This document shows, piece by piece, positions 1,246 through 24,515 of a stretch of 27,507 bases of DNA (position 1 is the stretch's first letter; every line of letters starts with the position of its first letter). Below the pieces are notes generated by a model. It had not been told where the DNA came from. It saw nothing but the letters and a program-made list of their open reading frames with translations, and ran no database searches. The DNA is taken from positions 1 through 27,507 of the IMG/VR virus record IMGVR_UViG_3300046010_006546; one strand, 5' to 3'. This stretch comes from a virus. Position numbers and translations under genes: made by a program.

Positions 1246-3223
<1,978 letters not shown>

Positions 3224-3224
<1 letters not shown>

Positions 3225-5659: not shown

Positions 5660-6396
5660 TGCCTCTCCTCTCCACCGCTGGCGGGGCCTCCGTTAGGGGG
5701 TTTCGCCCATATTCCACTCTCGTAACGGCTGGGTTCATCTCAGCTACGGGTGGAACCATCACCACTTCCGGGAACTACAAGATTCACACGTTTACGTCCT
5801 CTGGGACGTTTACGGTGACTTCAGCTCCAAGCGGCAAGTACATCGACTTCTTGGTGGTGGGTGGAGGTGGGTCTTGGGGTCAGGGTACGGATAATACTGG
5901 CGGGGGCGGCGGTGGCGTGGTCATAAAGGAGAATCAAGTTCCGAGTGCTGGTTCGTATTCCGTCACGATAGGCGCCGGTGGTTCTACCAATGGGGCCAAC
6001 GGTGCTAGCTCCGTGTTTTTTGGCATTACTGCACTTGGTGGCGGAGCTGGGGCTACCAGCAATACCGTCGGCAATTCAGGTGGAAGTGGTGGCGGTTCTG
6101 CAACTGGACAGGCTGCAAGTTCAGCGTTGCAACCAACTTCGGCTTCTGGTGGATTTGGAAATCCCGGAGCTGCTCGCGGTGGTGGTGGAGCCGGCTCAGC
6201 GGCAAGCGCCGATGTCGGAGGCGATGGGTATTCGGGAAGCCCGCTGAGTTCGTCTCTGTATGGTGCTGGTGGTAACGGCTTTATCAATGCCGTCTCCGTA
6301 TCTGCGAATACGGGTAATGGTGGCGGCGTTTTGTCGAGCGGTTTGGGCACCCCCGGTGCTGCTGGCGTGGTAATCGTCCGCTATCTCTATCAATAA
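5659..6396 (+). CDS. Glycine-rich tail adhesin
   Basis: A 245-residue protein. Residues about 28-60 form a beta-rich start (GTITTSGNYKIHTFTSSGTF). From residue 68 on, poly-Gly runs dominate (DFLVVGGGGSWGQG, NTGGGGGGVVIKENQVPSAG, then GGGAG, GGSGGGS, GGGGAGS), closing with GTPGAAGVVIVRYLYQ. This is the glycine-rich domain used in phage receptor-binding tips, where Gly segments can pack as polyglycine-II helices, as known for the Salmonella phage S16 adhesin gp38. The closing GVVIVRY is typical of the family. The start overlaps the previous stop (TAATG) and its stop overlaps the start of the tail-nozzle gene (TAATG), so expression is coupled to that tail component. Host-recognition role is inferred. 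Confidence 0.8.
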   Translation: MPLLSTAGGASVRGFRPYSTLVTAGFISATGGTITTSGNYKIHTFTSSGTFTVTSAPSGKYIDFLVVGGGGSWGQGTDNTGGGGGGVVIKENQVPSAGSYSVTIGAGGSTNGANGASSVFFGITALGGGAGATSNTVGNSGGSGGGSATGQAASSALQPTSASGGFGNPGAARGGGGAGSAASADVGGDGYSGSPLSSSLYGAGGNGFINAVSVSANTGNGGGVLSSGLGTPGAAGVVIVRYLYQ

Positions 6397-8579
6397 TGCC
6401 CCGCTATTCACAGTATGGTGCGACGGACACGGTGGTTGGAGATGAGGGCGATGTCTCCTTTCTCCGACTAAACACCCGTCTGCGTCCTGACCAGCTCCAG
6501 CCTGGCGATGTGGCGGGGTCTGTGAATGGGCGGATGGATGTAGACGGGGCGTGGCAGGTGAGAAAAGGCGTAGACAGCTTTGGCCCTACCCTGACGGCCA
6601 ATACGGAGGCGCTCATCCTCTCCGCTACCCCGGTCATCAAGCTGTACGGCAGTACGCCGTATGCCATCTCCTCGGCCACCCGCAGCACGACGACAGTCAC
6701 CATCACCACCTCGGCTAGTCACGGGTTTAGCTCCAATACGCTGGTAAACATCTACGGGCTGTCTGGGACTGTGGACCCTAACGGCAACCGGCTCATCACG
6801 GTGACTGGGAGCGCGACGTTCACCTACACCATCACCGGAGCTACAGGGAGTGAAACCTATGGTGGGACGGGGAATGCCCGCAATCCCATCCTGTCCGAAT
6901 CTGCTACGACGGGTGTGTACGGCTCCTGCATCTTTTCCGATCCGTCTACGACGAACACCCGGTACATCCTTCGCGCCACCAATAAGGAGGTGCTGGCGAT
7001 TAACGTGTCTACGGGAGTGTCTACGTCCATCGCCTATCCGTCCGGCGTCACTATCGGTGTCCGGGTGGAGATGCTGCAATGCTTCGACAAGGTGCTCCTC
7101 TTCCGTCCTAGCGGGGTCGCGGCCTTGGAGTGGAACGGAAGCCTGTCTGGTACTCCCGCCTTCACGGTGGTCACCAACGGGACCTACACCCAGCCCGTCT
7201 ATTTCGATGCGGCGGGCAATACGACCATTACCGATGGCGTGGTCACCGTCACCGCCACCAGCCACGGCCTGTCGGTTGGGGATAAGGTGTACGTCATTGA
7301 CCGAGGCTCCTCTGAGCTAGAGGAGGGGGATAAGGACTACACGGTGAGCGAGGTGCCGGGTGTTAGTAGCTTCAAGTTCTACGCCCAGGTGAGGGATATG
7401 GCGGCCAACTTGGTCGTCATCTCCAAGAAGGTTAGCTCTGGACGAGGATTCGTCCATATGCCCTCCCCGGAGTTCGGCGTCTACCACCAGCGTCGTCTGT
7501 GGGTGCCGTACACCCATAACAGCGGTAATCCCGGTACTAGCCGTAATCGGACGGACGAAATCATCGCCTCCGACATCCTCGACTACAACACCTTCGACCA
7601 GCTTCAGAACCAGTATCGGATTACTGCCGGCGTAGCCGACTACGTCATCGGCATCGAGCCCTTCGCGGAGGACAATCTCTTGGTGTTCAACCGCAACTCC
7701 ATCCATCTGATTCGGGGAGTGGGCGGGGCTTTGACGGATACGACCACCCAGCTCATCACGACAGAGGTGGGATGTGTGGCTCGCCGCTCCATCCTCCAAG
7801 TGGGTAATCAGGTGATGTTCCTGTCCGATAACGGGGTGTACGCCGCCCAGTTTGGCGACCTGTACAACCTCCGTGGGGCCGGGGTTCCGTTGTCGGAGCC
7901 CATCAACAGTCTCATCCAGCGTATCAACCGTAACTACGTCGGAAACAGCGTCGCGGCCTATTTCAACAACCGCTACTATCTGGCTATCCCGTTGGACGCC
8001 TCGACGGTGAACAACGCCATCCTGATTTATAATTTCTTGAATCAGGGGTGGGAGAGCCTAGATACGACCGGCCAGAACGGGTGGGAAATCCAGAACTTCT
8101 TGGTCGTGGATAGCGGGGGGTTGTCCAAGCTCTACACCGTTAGCTCCTCCGGTTCCATTCACATCGTGGATGAGCGTTCTGCGGGGAGTGACCGTCTAAG
8201 CCTCTTTGCCGGCGTGCCTGCCACGGTCTACTCCATAGCCCCGAGTGTCACCACCCGGCAATATGCCTTTGGTCAGCTTGGCCGGAAGAAGTTCTCCACC
8301 TACGAACTGCACGTAGAGAGTTCGGAGTCTGAGAGTAGCGAGGGCACCATCTCCATTGACATCGAGAATCCCGACTTCTCGGAGGCCCTATCCACCATTA
8401 GCGCCCTAAATGGGGAGACTCTAGGAGTGGGGGAAGACACCTCCCTGCGTGGTAGAATCGGCAACAAACGTGGCTACGCCGCCCAAATTGTCTTAACTCC
8501 CAGTAATGGGCGTCCCAAGCTCCGGGCGGTGAAGTTGCAGGCGTCCCTCACCGACCCAACCATCACTTCCAAGTCCTAA
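6396..8579 (+). CDS. Tail nozzle / tail tubular B-like or P22 gp10-like stabilisation protein
   Basis: A 727-residue protein, the expected size for podovirus nozzle proteins that cap the portal and gate DNA. It opens with LNTRLRPDQLQPGDVAGSVNG and VDGAWQVRKGVDSF, describing a ring of beta modules. It includes two Ig-like or beta inserts with repeated phrasing (TVTITTSASHGFSSNTLVNI and VVTVTATSHGLSVGDKVYVI). The middle (residues about 355-560) has the characteristic block YHQRRLWVPYTHNSGNPGT ... NTFDQLQ ... EDNLLVFNRNSIHLI ... SDNGVYAAQFGD, which I associate with P22 gp10-type stabilisation and T7 gp12-type proteins. Fibre genes flank it. Assignment is by size, order and motif memory; the exact subfamily is uncertain. 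Confidence 0.7.
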   Translation: MPRYSQYGATDTVVGDEGDVSFLRLNTRLRPDQLQPGDVAGSVNGRMDVDGAWQVRKGVDSFGPTLTANTEALILSATPVIKLYGSTPYAISSATRSTTTVTITTSASHGFSSNTLVNIYGLSGTVDPNGNRLITVTGSATFTYTITGATGSETYGGTGNARNPILSESATTGVYGSCIFSDPSTTNTRYILRATNKEVLAINVSTGVSTSIAYPSGVTIGVRVEMLQCFDKVLLFRPSGVAALEWNGSLSGTPAFTVVTNGTYTQPVYFDAAGNTTITDGVVTVTATSHGLSVGDKVYVIDRGSSELEEGDKDYTVSEVPGVSSFKFYAQVRDMAANLVVISKKVSSGRGFVHMPSPEFGVYHQRRLWVPYTHNSGNPGTSRNRTDEIIASDILDYNTFDQLQNQYRITAGVADYVIGIEPFAEDNLLVFNRNSIHLIRGVGGALTDTTTQLITTEVGCVARRSILQVGNQVMFLSDNGVYAAQFGDLYNLRGAGVPLSEPINSLIQRINRNYVGNSVAAYFNNRYYLAIPLDASTVNNAILIYNFLNQGWESLDTTGQNGWEIQNFLVVDSGGLSKLYTVSSSGSIHIVDERSAGSDRLSLFAGVPATVYSIAPSVTTRQYAFGQLGRKKFSTYELHVESSESESSEGTISIDIENPDFSEALSTISALNGETLGVGEDTSLRGRIGNKRGYAAQIVLTPSNGRPKLRAVKLQASLTDPTITSKS

Positions 8580-19816: not shown

Positions 19817-21150
19817 CGTGTTCTGAGTTGGTTGAACTTTGTTGTGGGTCTGTGGAAGGCCATCTTCACCGAGGCGCAGCCGTTGTCCCGGCCTTTGGCC
19901 TGCACCAGCTCCACCTCTAGGGTGGTCAGGTGTTGGTCGTTGACCGTCTGCGGCGCGCCCTCGGAGTTCTCTGCCGGCAAGTGGATGAAGAGCACCCGGT
20001 CGGCGTCCTGCTCCAAGTTGCCGCTCTCTCGGAGGTCTGAGAGGCGGGGCACCCGGGACTCCTTTTCTACCTCACGGCTAACCTGGGCGAGGAGCACGAC
20101 CGGGATTCCAAGGCTCACAGCAAGGTCTTTGAAGGCTAGGCTCACCTGTCCGATGGCGATGTCCCGCGTCTCCCCCTTGCCGTGCGGGGGCACGTAAAGT
20201 TGGAGGTAGTCGATGACGATGGCCTTGATGGACATAAACGCCTTACAGGCTTCGATGCGGGCGGCCACCTGTTGAGCATTCTTGTCGGCGTCGAAGATGT
20301 GGAGCGTCTTGCTGAGGTTCTGCTCGATGTCTGTGAGGGCGGCGCGGAACTTGTTAACGTCCCCGGGCATTGCCTGAGCGTTGGAGACGGCCTTTACGGA
20401 CACCCCCGACATCATCGCGGCTAAGCCTAAGCACACCTTCTTGACCGGCATCTCGCGGGAGAAGAGCAGCACGTTGCCATACTTCGTTGCCCAATGCCGG
20501 CAGATGTCGCGGGCCATTGACGACTTACCGACACCCGGACGGGCGGCGATGATGATGAGTTCCCCTCCCGTAGCTGCGCCCAGTTCCCGCGTCATATCTC
20601 CCCACGGCCAGGTCATCCCCGGCTGCTCCACCTCACCGGAAAGAAGCTTGGCTAGGTCGGCCATAACGAGGCCGGCGGCGTCCTTGAGGCTCACCTGCGT
20701 GGCGGTCTGGTTCCTCAACGCAAGGAGCTTTGAGATTTTGGCGACGAACTCGTCCACCTGTGGCTTGCCCGCTAGGGCCAGTTCCTGCGTCTCTGCGGCC
20801 ACCACGGCTATCTCCCTAGCCTGATATAGCTCCTTTATCCGATCTAGGCTATAAACGAAGGAGATGGAGGTTTGCGCGGCTCCGGTGATGTCCGCGAAGT
20901 TGGCTAGTCCTCCAACCTTCTTGAGGTCGGGATCGGTGCGTTTAAGCTCCTCACAGATGACGTGAGGGTCCAGTCCTTTGCCGCGAACGTGGCACTCGTT
21001 AAGCTGCTTCCAGATGGTGCGGCAGAAAGGGTTGTAGAACCAGTTCTCGCCAACCTTGTAGTCTAGGGCTTTGAGGAGAGCCGAGGAGCCCTCCTGAACT
21101 ATCGTTGAGATGACTATCCTCTCAGCCTGTTCATTGTGTGGTAGTTTCAT
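19813..21150 (-). CDS. dnaB: DnaB-type replicative helicase
   Basis: A 445-residue hexameric helicase. The N-terminal domain (EQAERIVISTIVQEG ... WFYNPFCRTIWKQL) is the DnaB-N helical fold. The RecA-like motor has Walker A ARPGVGKSS (residues 203-211), the B-strand phrase LLFSREMP (228-235), Walker B IVIDYLQL (311-318) and the motif RLSDLRESGNLEQDAD (369-384), which is diagnostic for the family. It unwinds DNA ahead of the phage polymerase, which is not in this window; primase is not fused. ATG 21150 overlaps the preceding small gene by 20 bases; its stop overlaps the MSAGKGD gene (ATGA). Confidence 0.95.
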   Translation of the reverse strand: MKLPHNEQAERIVISTIVQEGSSALLKALDYKVGENWFYNPFCRTIWKQLNECHVRGKGLDPHVICEELKRTDPDLKKVGGLANFADITGAAQTSISFVYSLDRIKELYQAREIAVVAAETQELALAGKPQVDEFVAKISKLLALRNQTATQVSLKDAAGLVMADLAKLLSGEVEQPGMTWPWGDMTRELGAATGGELIIIAARPGVGKSSMARDICRHWATKYGNVLLFSREMPVKKVCLGLAAMMSGVSVKAVSNAQAMPGDVNKFRAALTDIEQNLSKTLHIFDADKNAQQVAARIEACKAFMSIKAIVIDYLQLYVPPHGKGETRDIAIGQVSLAFKDLAVSLGIPVVLLAQVSREVEKESRVPRLSDLRESGNLEQDADRVLFIHLPAENSEGAPQTVNDQHLTTLEVELVQAKGRDNGCASVKMAFHRPTTKFNQLRTR

Positions 21151-21334
21151 CGACTCGTCTCCTTTTTAGTATGTGTGTCCATTCTTCGTTTGTTAGGTGG
21201 TATTTCTTGTATCCCAAATTGGTGATGCGACTACGGATCGCAGAGGCGTTGAGGCGGGTGAATTGGGCCAGCAACTCTTTCAGGTTGGCCCCGCGCCTCA
21301 TCGCGTTTTCAAACTGGATGCGTTCCGTTAGCAT
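21131..21334 (-). CDS. Small HTH-like DNA-binding protein (67 aa)
   Basis: A 67-residue basic protein: MLTERIQFENAMRRGANLKE then LLAQFTRLNASAIRSRITNL and GYKKYHLTNEEWTHILKRRR. Residues about 18-40 have the LKELxxxFxRLNxSAIRSRI pattern of a helix-turn-helix recognition unit (homeodomain-like or loader type). It lies directly upstream of the helicase and overlaps it by 20 bases, so it may be a helicase loader, origin-binding or transcription factor. Start ATG overlaps the stop of the 73-residue gene. I cannot place it in a named family. Confidence 0.6.
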   Translation of the reverse strand: MLTERIQFENAMRRGANLKELLAQFTRLNASAIRSRITNLGYKKYHLTNEEWTHILKRRRVDETTTQ

Positions 21335-23033: not shown

Positions 23034-23221
23034 TGCGTAAGTCCCATTGAGATTTGGAATTTGGCATCCCGCACCGCCCAGAGGGCGTTCTCCCGCATCA
23101 ACTCCCGCCAGAACTTTGAATTCTGGGGGTAGTGCTTTGCCACTAGGCTGTAAGCCTGTGCGCGGCCAATGCTCCAGTTGGAAAATCCACCTTTGCGGAT
23201 TTGGGCTTTAAGGGCTTTCAC
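23030..23221 (-). CDS. Small basic hypothetical protein (63 aa)
   Basis: GTG at 23221 overlaps the TGA of the first gene of the operon (GTGA). The 63-residue product begins MKALKAQIRKGGFSNWSIGR and continues AQAYSLVAKHYPQNSKFWRE. It is basic and helical with scattered Trp. No family recognised. It is followed by the 32-residue membrane gene by ATGA overlap. Confidence 0.65.
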   Translation of the reverse strand: MKALKAQIRKGGFSNWSIGRAQAYSLVAKHYPQNSKFWRELMRENALWAVRDAKFQISMGLTQ

Positions 23222-23388
23222 GAGGCCACCTCCTTCTGGTTAATCCAGTCGAGATGGTAGGTGAGCACCTCAATCTTCGCATTCTGCTCGTAGAGCAGTT
23301 GGATCGCGGCTTTGATGAGGTCGGCTTGCTCTGAGCAACTAACCTCCAGTTTGGTTTGGAGCCCGTAGGCGATGTCTTTGATGTCCAT
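23218..23388 (-). CDS. Small protein, first gene of the leftward replication operon (56 aa)
   Basis: ATG 23388 to TGA (23218-23220) encodes 56 residues: MDIKDIAYGLQTKLEVSCSE then QADLIKAAIQLLYEQNAKIE and a helix ending NQKEVAS. The helical, charged pattern suggests a small dimeric protein. Its stop overlaps the next GTG (GTGA). The leader ahead of it (GAACCACGAAGAAAA) is A/C-rich with at best a weak ribosome site. No family recognised. As the first gene it is a good reference for mapping the operon promoter. Confidence 0.65.
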   Translation of the reverse strand: MDIKDIAYGLQTKLEVSCSEQADLIKAAIQLLYEQNAKIEVLTYHLDWINQKEVAS

Positions 23389-23417
23389 TTTTCTTCGTGG
23401 TTCGTGTCTTTGTTGGG

Positions 23418-23434
23418 GCCGGCTTGTTGCCGGC
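23418..23434 (-). promoter_or_regulatory. Hairpin in the leader of the leftward operon
   Basis: GCCGGC - TTGTT - GCCGGC forms a six-base-pair stem with a 5-base loop, 30 bases upstream of the first start codon (23388). No T-run follows on the - strand, so it may stabilise or regulate the mRNA rather than terminate it. Confidence 0.4.
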
Positions 23435-23567
23435 TGCTAAAGTTGGAGCAGATTTTCCGTCAGTCGCCAAGCTCATTTCCTGTGCCCGGAATCCCGGCCT
23501 TTGAGAATCAACACTTTGTATCGTATTTGAGTCAAAATCCTCTCATTTCTGATCTATTGGGATGGAA

Positions 23568-23638
23568 ATGTCTCATTTACCTCTCACTTATGAGTGATTA
23601 AGGGGTTAATGTCTCACATATCGGACTTTATGAGACAT
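23568..23638. repeat. Three ATGTCTCA/TGAGACAT boxes with a hairpin
   Basis: Exact octamer ATGTCTCA at 23568-23575 and 23609-23616, and its inverse TGAGACAT at 23631-23638. The last two form an inverted pair with a 14-base spacer. Between the first two lies a perfect stem TCACT-TATG-AGTGA (23584-23597). Clustering in an A/T-rich stretch upstream of the replication operon suggests a protein-binding site set, either an operator or origin iterons. Confidence 0.55.
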
Positions 23639-23682
23639 AAGGCGCGATATACCGGACGTTAACCCTTAAAAAATGGGGTTAA
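23603..23682. repeat. GGGTTAA/TTAACCC repeats
   Basis: GGGTTAA at 23603-23609, TTAACCC at 23659-23665 and GGGTTAA at 23676-23682. The last two form a 7-base-pair hairpin with the A-rich loop TTAAAAAATG. They interleave with the ATGTCTCA boxes. Confidence 0.5.
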
Positions 23683-23752
23683 GGCACATTGGGCTGTGCT
23701 TTATGCGGCTCCTGTAAGGACGCCGCTCCGGGTCGCCGCCTTAGGGTGTAAG

Positions 23753-23770
23753 AAATACTAGGTAGTATTT
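23753..23770. promoter_or_regulatory. Operator-like 18-base palindrome
   Basis: AAATACTA-GG-TAGTATTT has 8-base arms that are exact inverse complements around a GG centre. Its size and symmetry fit binding by a dimeric HTH regulator. There is no adjacent gene for such a regulator; the HTH-like protein at 21131-21334 is one candidate. Confidence 0.45.
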
Positions 23771-24057
23771 TCAACAAACTGCCCTTAGCCGAGATGCAGA
23801 GACTTCCATAGCCTTTCGGCCTGGTTGACTAGTCCCGGTGGCTGCTTCCCGGAAAAGAATCCCGGTTTCGGTGGCGATCCAACTGCCCTTGAGCCTGAGT
23901 GCTTTCGCTCCCACGCCTCGACTATCGAAGTCTCAACAAGTTTCATCGAGGTCTTTTGACCGCCTATCCTATCCACGCTGAGTGTGTCGCCGTTTAAGGC
24001 GTCCGGGGCCTATGGGGCTGATACGTGGCCGGAACCCTACGGGGCTCCTAAAAGCAA

Positions 24058-24092
24058 GAAGCCCGGCGAGGTACGACTCTCGACCGGGCTTC
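24058..24092 (-). terminator. Leftward terminator-like hairpin
   Basis: Arms GAAGCCCGG (24058-24066) and CCGGGCTTC (24084-24092), extended by CGAG/CTCG (24067-24070 with 24079-24082), give a strong stem with one bulged base. On the - strand it is followed by TTGCTTTTAGG, a modest T-rich tail. It would end transcription arriving from the endolysin region. Confidence 0.55.
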
Positions 24093-24191
24093 CCCCGAGA
24101 CTTCCCAGGGAGTAGATTGGTTGAGCGGGCCGTACACCGCAACTGACAACGACTGAACTAAGGGGTAGACGTTTAAGCACAAGTCTTAGAT

Positions 24192-24515
24192 GTGTTCTAT
24201 TGTTATGTTTCTGCTAAGATGTTGCGGATTAGTGCCTTAAGGCATAAAATAGTCCTGTGCCAGTTAGTTCCAAAATGGAAATGCTTGCGCCGCAGGCCGG
24301 GTCGATGCCTTAAGGGCTGCTTGGAGCTAACCCTCGAATCCCCGCAGGAATCCCCGAAGGGTTCCCCGAAGAAATCCCCGAAGGGTATGTCCCTTAAGGC
24401 CCACCCCGGCGCTTCGCTGCCTCCAGGGTTCGTTGTGCGGCCTTTTACGGTGTTTAAGGAGAAAAACCGTACGTGGATATGGCACGAACCAGAAAACCCG
24501 CCAAAATCGATTTAA
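24192..24515 (+). CDS. Doubtful Lys/Pro-rich open frame (107 aa)
   Basis: An open frame over the tandem-repeat area. The middle encodes LESPQESPKGSPKKSPKGMS, repeats of the S-P-K-K/G type known from histone H1 and other DNA minor-groove binders; the end reads PGFVVRPFTVFKEKNRTWIW. No ribosome site stands out and the N-terminal part (FYCYVSAKMLRISALRHKIV) is not convincing. It could be a real small basic protein starting at a later ATG, or a product of repeats only. Confidence 0.25.
   Translation: MFYCYVSAKMLRISALRHKIVLCQLVPKWKCLRRRPGRCLKGCLELTLESPQESPKGSPKKSPKGMSLKAHPGASLPPGFVVRPFTVFKEKNRTWIWHEPENPPKSI
24299..24315. repeat. 17-base direct repeat, copy 1
   Basis: GGGTCGATGCCTTAAGG, identical to the copy at 24601-24617, 302 bases away. 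Both contain a CCTTAAGG palindrome. Confidence 0.85.
24337..24384. repeat. Four tandem 12-base repeats
   Basis: Units at 24337-24348 (AATCCCCGCAGG), 24349-24360 (AATCCCCGAAGG), 24361-24372 (GTTCCCCGAAGA) and 24373-24384 (AATCCCCGAAGG). The word AATCCCCGC recurs further right in the window (24555, 27212, 27261), suggesting a dispersed element. Confidence 0.8.

Follow-up and report, generated by a model that had tools for sequence, protein, structure and literature searches.

Phage lambda has the O protein with an iteron origin. In the ColE1 RNA II/RNA I system, specificity arises through pairing of hairpin loops, and in the CI RNA of phage P4, a small phage RNA, type specificity is conferred by complementary loop sequences. 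According to Wetzel et al. (2020, PMC7157519), cluster A mycobacteriophages that replicate as plasmids rely either on RepA or on a noncoding RNA made from a region of ~400-500 bp; the RNA class has no recognisable initiator gene, its RNA origin was likened to that of ColE1, and the RNA adjoins parABS and serves extrachromosomal prophages.

A comparable arrangement was found in the phages related to a 27,507-base stretch of viral DNA (hereafter, the window), in which a leader RNA is followed by a structured core RNA. As in the mycobacteriophages, protein and RNA are alternatives, and the RNA class is without a recognisable initiator gene. The two cases differ in several respects: the mycobacteriophage RNA origins show no sequence match to the element of the window (blastn, 50,697 phage records); their RNA lies beside parABS, whereas no ParB or integrase was found here; and the protein alternative is given there as RepA, while here it is lambda-O-like. 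In addition, our core has a covariation-supported fold, and its function in replication is a proposal. With ColE1 (PMC7157519), the element shares the idea of RNA-only initiation and specificity by loop pairing, but here both complementary loops lie on one strand of one leader RNA, and an antisense RNA was not identified. The c4 RNA of P1/P7 (PMC12197685) is also a small phage RNA with complementary loops that give type specificity. In contrast to c4 and P4 CI RNA, the leader has its complement in its own terminator-like hairpin, has no Rfam match, and no lysogeny genes were seen. With regard to lambda O, sister phages of the gene class have at the same slot an O-like gene with internal repeated palindromes, whereas the window is without an O-like gene. 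Finally, GOLLD and ROOL (PMC12286853) are likewise large pseudoknotted phage RNAs of unknown function, and the tRNA gene upstream of the core in locus L033 is a point of likeness; however, the core is less than half as long, has no Rfam match and lies outside tRNA islands. The RNA itself is apparently undescribed, while the use of RNA in place of a replication initiator is already known.

Box array upstream of the leftward operon

The first-pass annotation of the window had drawn attention to a dense set of inverted boxes at 23568-23770, and all of these boxes were confirmed by sequence search. The ATGTCTCA/TGAGACAT box lies at 23568-23575 and 23609-23616 on the plus strand and at 23631-23638 on the minus strand; these are its only three copies in the window, with 0.46 expected and at least three found in 2 of 100 shuffles. 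GGGTTAA was located at 23603, 23659 (minus strand) and 23676, and is unremarkable on its own, because three further copies occur elsewhere in the window (six in all, 2.78 expected; at least six in 7 of 100 shuffles). The hairpin TCACT-TATG-AGTGA is found at 23584-23597, and the 18-bp palindrome AAATACTA-GG-TAGTATTT at 23753-23770, directly after the core RNA; alignment of the stretch showed that the palindrome is kept in close relatives, with a compensating double change in L049. The stretch is indeed A/T-richer, as had been claimed, with a GC content of 46% versus about 50-60% for most of the window, and it was correctly placed between two leftward operons, upstream of ThyX, DnaB and ERF.

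In 2,000 dinucleotide shuffles of this stretch, the P value was 0.002 for an 8-mer present three times and 0.0115 for an 8-bp palindrome with a short loop, and no shuffle combined a three-fold 8-mer with the required three-fold 7-mer count (0/2,000). The real-window control tempers these figures: of 1,077 other 203-nt stretches, 45 contained a three-fold 8-mer and seven an 8-bp palindrome. The box set as a whole is unlikely by chance, and the case for boxes other than TGAGACAT is weak. Neither the GGGTTAA boxes, common elsewhere in the window, nor the TCACT hairpin were retained as key elements, as their conservation is unlike that of the TGAGACAT sites.

Read on the minus strand, the TGAGACAT sites are 13-bp near-palindromes spaced by 21 and 41 bp: TTATGTCTCATAA (site 1, 23628-23640, identical in the relatives L002 and L003), ATGTGAGACATTA (site 2, 23607-23619, 21 bp from site 1), and AAATGAGACATTT (site 3, 23566-23578, 41 bp from site 2, present in L003 and not in L002). 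A weak site, TAATCACTCATAA (23588-23600), has three mismatches, four in L003, and overlaps the TCACT-TATG-AGTGA hairpin. The L002 array is spaced by 21 and 21 bp, and in the 38.7-kb record behind L003 the TGAGACAT boxes occur solely at the equivalent place. Sites 1 and 2 are identical in the window, L002 and L003 over 22 scored positions, while the preceding 60 nt and the spacer have drifted. With the ends of the 13-bp sites set by us following the boxes of the first-pass annotation, 22/22 site positions versus 37/70 surrounding ones are identical between the window and L002 (Fisher p = 1e-5), and 22/22 versus 30/39 between the window and L003 (Fisher p = 0.012).

Being near-palindromic, helically spaced, upstream of an operon and conserved against drift, the TGAGACAT sites look like putative operators of the leftward operon. 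The earlier suggestion of a regulatory switch fits this phased, conserved array just upstream of the first gene of the operon. The suggestion of an origin with iterons gained no support for the boxes, which are limited to close relatives of the window: in the numerous relatives sharing both the RNA cassette and this DnaB, the box position spans just ~100 bp and has no array. Nor was there support for the HTH-like protein encoded at 21131-21334 as the box binder, since it has no PHROG match and one weak, off-topic Pfam model; the HTH_3 repressor family was found in 0/7 records. The first gene of the leftward operon (23218-23476, minus strand) starts ~90 bp beyond the boxes. Its L003 orthologue is an intact frame of 85 aa from the equivalent of 23476, and one extra base in an A-run of the window relative to L003 (plus-strand T-run 23388-23392) splits the gene.

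Leader and core RNA

The boxes are real, but the annotation missed what adjoins them, a conserved RNA cassette of ~370 nt of which they are merely the 3' flank. The cassette (leader, then core) occupies 23,777-24,140 on the minus strand, and the core, ~268 nt with two pseudoknots, spans 23777-24044 on the same strand according to the covariance model. By blastn comparison, many distant relatives were seen to conserve the noncoding sequence that lies to the right of the boxes. The DnaB of the window retrieved 30 related viral contigs; a 19-mer from the core was found in 24 IMG/VR stretches, to which a relaxed pattern added L051 alone, and after three further protein scans an nhmmer search over 210 sequences found the core in the new loci L149, L151 and the divergent L152. 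The core was absent from 50,697 phage records (blastn), from 72,556 plasmid records and, in a pattern search and one coding-region coincidence apart, from 84,980 species genomes of bacteria and archaea. A bacterial genome contig considered as a carrier (L050) was dropped, its match being a chance one inside a coding region. In L051 (4736-4884, 40 bits), a contig with portal-like and terminase-like genes, the core is shortened or strongly diverged.

Rfam gave no gathering match in the window and, in nine related loci, none other than to a tRNA; as candidates for a known Rfam identity, there were solely chance-level matches to a CRISPR repeat and sroH. A group I intron or RNase P, weighed on their core motifs, was rejected for want of an Rfam match, and no tRNA or tmRNA was detected in the window. 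Among the papers listed by full-text searches of open-licence PubMed Central, no description of such an RNA element appeared, and the core RNA is apparently undescribed so far. The core is non-coding: in 19 of 21 sequences, each of the three sense frames is interrupted by stops, which argues against a coding origin of its conservation, and the gaps in its alignment are mostly of 1-2 nt.

The fold, comprising eight helices and two pseudoknots, was assessed with 18 aligned sequences; L033, L037 and L040 were excluded, as MAFFT misaligned their variable parts. Standard pairs were formed in 97.8% of 733 cells, where shuffles reached 86.2% and slid structures 38-52%; both sides had changed in 18 of 41 pairs, and none of the five measures was reached in any of 500 shuffles. 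The weakest helix is helix 8 (86%). A covariance model trained without the three excluded sequences recovered all of them at full length with 85-88 bits. The 5' domain of the core is nearly invariant and includes the near-invariant 19-nt motif GTAGGGTTCCGGCCACGTA (24022-24040, minus strand) in the small 5' pseudoknot, where GG/CC is compensated to CC/GG in L152. The long-range pseudoknot helix (helix 6) is formed by GAGACUUC (5' strand, 23927-23934) and GAAGUCUC (3' strand, 23799-23806), both on the minus strand, and seven alleles of it keep 55 of 56 pairs intact. The helix alleles read by hand contain 13 G-U pairs and no A-C pair, and therefore favour an RNA of the minus strand; these alleles were picked by eye for complementarity, and the aligned-column test is the stronger one. 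The double-pseudoknot fold of the core is strongly supported by covariation, on which the case for it rests, because folding 23770-24200 as a single sequence gives no unusual stability (z = -1.55).

Two direct repeats of the core change in step: R1 GGCTCAAGGGCAGTT (23881-23895, minus strand) and R2 GGCTAAGGGCAGTT (23777-23790, minus strand), which forms the 3' end of the core. Across the phages, 85 of 100 cognate positions are equal, versus 5.5 of 10 in non-cognate combinations (0/20,000 permutations). A cis pairing partner for R1/R2 was abandoned as an idea, as no consistent complement was found.

The leader contains the H1 hairpin GCGG-TGTACGGC-CCGC (24125-24140, minus strand), whose loop pairs with the loop of the leader's own terminator-like hairpin, GAAGCCCGGTCGAG-AGTCGTAC-CTCGCCGGGCTTC, which is followed by a T-rich tail (24050-24092, minus strand). 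In the window, the terminator-like loop GUCGUAC is complementary to the H1 loop GUACGGC over 5 Watson-Crick bp, or 7 bp with one G-U. An automatic search in 31 distinct leaders gave 7-9 bp in 23, 6 bp in four, 5 bp (7 with one G-U) in two including the window, and 4 bp in L070 and L051. In L070 the search had picked the wrong hairpin, and the hairpin was set by hand for the allele test; the L051 leader has no loop complement. Over 15 leader alleles, with one representative per allele and L051 not among them, cognate loops paired by a mean of 7.0 bp versus 4.63 for non-cognate ones, the cognate sum being reached in 0/20,000 permutations; 7 bp was attained by 11 of 15 cognate and by 9 of 210 non-cognate pairs. 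The leader structure is thus supported by covariation of the two loops. The same hypervariable loop allele can be found on distant backbones (L013 and L151; L011 and L039).

The 3' arm of the terminator-like hairpin in the window can pair instead with AGGAGCCC just before the core, and such alternative pairing with the bases preceding the core is possible in many leaders. L013 and L014 contain an insert of ~80 nt with hairpins of its own between the terminator-like hairpin and the core; it falls within the loop closed by the alternative pairing, both arms of which are intact. Because the T-run is poor in L012-like leaders, we infer termination with reserve, and the leader promoter is a presumed one, since a consensus promoter scan found none on the cassette. 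In the window lineage, less than 20 nt separates the terminator-like hairpin from the core, which leaves no room for a promoter, and so the core would need read-through.

Exchange of the core with an initiator gene

Eight DnaB relatives without the core have the same flanks and, between them, a different block that holds an ORF. L025, with the RNA, and L023, with the gene, share 86% identity on one side of the replaced block and 96% on the other. The ORF matches the PHROG family 'replication initiation O-like' (3e-11) and Pfam HTH_36 (4e-9), and is likewise preceded by a leader with complementary loops. Among the 31 contigs with this DnaB (the 30 relatives and the window), the core is present in 17 (three of them fragments), the gene in nine (one fragment), and both in none; these counts are of contigs, not independent events, given the near-duplicates L013/L014 and L023/L024/L029. 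The slot is uninformative in five: L004, L007, L008 and L021 end before it, and L030 is not syntenic. Consequently, the lambda-O-like gene and the core RNA exclude each other at the slot in 26/26 informative contigs. The hunch of the first-pass annotation that the region has to do with replication initiation gains indirect support, in that the adjoining right-hand slot holds a lambda-O-like initiator gene in sister phages.

Initiator families were also looked for beyond the slot. HTH_36 and phrog_391 were detected in 6/6 gene-class records and in 0/8 RNA-class records; three of these eight measure 38.7, 39.4 and 40.2 kb, though RNA-class records may be incomplete. Phage_rep_O and phrog_428 were found in 0/5 RNA-class records, so that none of the tested initiator families was found in the window or in four other RNA-class records. 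The ORF list of the L003 record, inspected by eye, showed no obvious initiator and many small proteins without an assigned role. As far as the families searched and possibly incomplete records allow, the RNA class thus combines a conserved noncoding RNA with the absence of an initiator gene, as is expected of an RNA origin; the small genes may include an unrecognised initiator. C75C1 is a distant phage of similar layout and, among named phages that are related, the only one matching over full length (36% identity in a head-closure protein); its leftward DnaB/Erf operon includes a protein annotated for replication initiation, and the core is absent.

The O-like genes contain internal repeats and palindromes in L010 (4480-4600), L020 (5230-5340) and L023 (3880-3990), namely TATGCACCATATGCA twice, ACCAAGGT/ACCTTGGT and AATACTAA, which would fit an origin inside the initiator gene. 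In L021 (1-840), an inserted DNA methyltransferase gene separates the cassette slot from the DUF6378 gene.

Outside the DnaB lineage, the core lies upstream of an SNF2-type helicase in L037 and L040, and upstream of small genes leading to terminase in L033, so the link between the core and initiation rests on the DnaB lineage. In L069-L071, three of the closest relatives of L040, the leader is present, core and initiator are both absent and the slot is empty; the core is thus an optional insert behind the leader. It was found in none of the 79 SNF2 loci (L069-L147). A complementary-loop leader as a general feature of SNF2-helicase phages was discarded, since a terminator-like hairpin is in range in 11 of 74 loci, and those 11 show no excess of loop complementarity (1,715 of 20,000 permutations reach the observed value). 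The closest three (L069-L071, L070 by hand) alone fit; their core-less leaders end directly at the start codon of the SNF2 helicase. In L033, a tRNA-Thr gene (6377-6459) is situated ~150 nt upstream of the core.

Possible mechanism and alternatives

From these data we tentatively propose a cassette that controls replication through RNA, with the core in place of the initiator and the flagged stretch as 3' flank and operator region, a proposal that we regard as credible but short of probable. Leftward transcription would yield the leader RNA, whose H1 and terminator-like hairpins bear the complementary, fast-changing loops, and the leader would probably set the amount of transcription that continues onward. 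Read-through transcripts would include the ~268-nt core, folded as a double pseudoknot, and the core would take over the task of the lambda-O-like initiator that sister phages encode at this slot. Produced at its own template, the core may mark or prime the replication start, e.g. as a persistent RNA-DNA hybrid (R-loop), and might thereby allow loading of the phage DnaB helicase, perhaps within the A/T-richer stretch of the boxes. Phased sites of the TTATGTCTCATAA type would serve as operators, at which a dimeric regulator may bind and control the leftward operon. By analogy with the mycobacteriophage RNA origins, an RNA counterpart of an initiator is the best, if tentative, reading of the core. 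That a phage lineage swapped its protein initiator for a double-pseudoknot RNA, with a kissing-loop leader setting expression and compatibility type, we consider a rather doubtful possibility. Several observations were counted against a replication role: the core also occurs away from DnaB, next to SNF2-type helicase and pre-terminase genes; the slot is empty in L069-L071, with no initiator in its place; the core would need read-through in the window lineage; an A/T-rich melting region is not conserved in other RNA-class phages; and the boxes are absent from most of them.

The main rival is that leader and core form a cis-acting regulatory RNA for the downstream operon, i.e. an attenuator with an antitermination, riboswitch-like or translation-control element behind it, and have no direct role in starting replication, in which case modular gene order would account by chance for the swap with the initiator gene. 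On the observed facts it is as economical as a replication RNA, and we take it seriously while doubting it. The core is invariably downstream of a terminator-like leader and just upstream of an operon, the downstream operons vary (ThyX/DnaB; SNF2 helicase-methylase; small genes before terminase), the second pairing option of the terminator 3' arm, with sequence before the core, hints at a switch, and SNF2 relatives manage without the core; however, a cis-regulatory RNA leaves unexplained both the 26/26 exclusion of core and lambda-O-like gene and the absence of the initiator family from RNA-class records. An unlikely explanation is that the core is a trans-acting phage RNA of the same transcript, serving host take-over, superinfection control or counter-defence, with R1 and R2 contacting one partner. 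The concerted change of R1 and R2 without a consistent cis complement and the recurrence of loop alleles on distant backbones, which resemble specificity determinants, are in line with it, but no target was found. Classic prophage immunity is unlikely, because integrase was found in 0/5, HTH_3 in 0/7 and ParB in 0/7 records; for the same reason, a plasmid-prophage role is unsupported.

The iteron reading of the boxes, in which a phage initiator binds them as a DNA origin, appears very improbable. Conserved 13-bp sites at 21/41-bp spacing (21/21 in L002) resemble iterons as well as operators, and the stretch is A/T-richer, yet the tested initiator families are absent from the window, and the sites are confined to its close relatives, whereas the replication module is common to many more phages. 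Least probable of all is a mobile self-acting RNA element, such as a ribozyme-like insertion landing behind terminators: the core is present or absent between close relatives, with sharp ends and a direct repeat at its 3' end, but its strand and position relative to leader and operon are constant in the loci inspected, and there is no Rfam ribozyme match.

If the core does replace the initiator protein, these phages offer a natural pair in which a protein gene and an RNA alternate at one slot of a common backbone, and whether a folded RNA can do the work of an initiator becomes directly testable. Such an origin would run on RNA alone in phages that show no lysogeny or partition genes, and its sequence would have no relation to that of the mycobacteriophage RNA origins. 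Even if the cassette is merely regulatory, a strongly supported family of structured phage RNA is missing from Rfam, the pairing specificity of its leader evolves by allele exchange, and R1 and R2 evolve in step. Elsewhere in the window, the tail gene (1533-3224) contains collagen-like GPTGPTG repeats at about 2200-2820.
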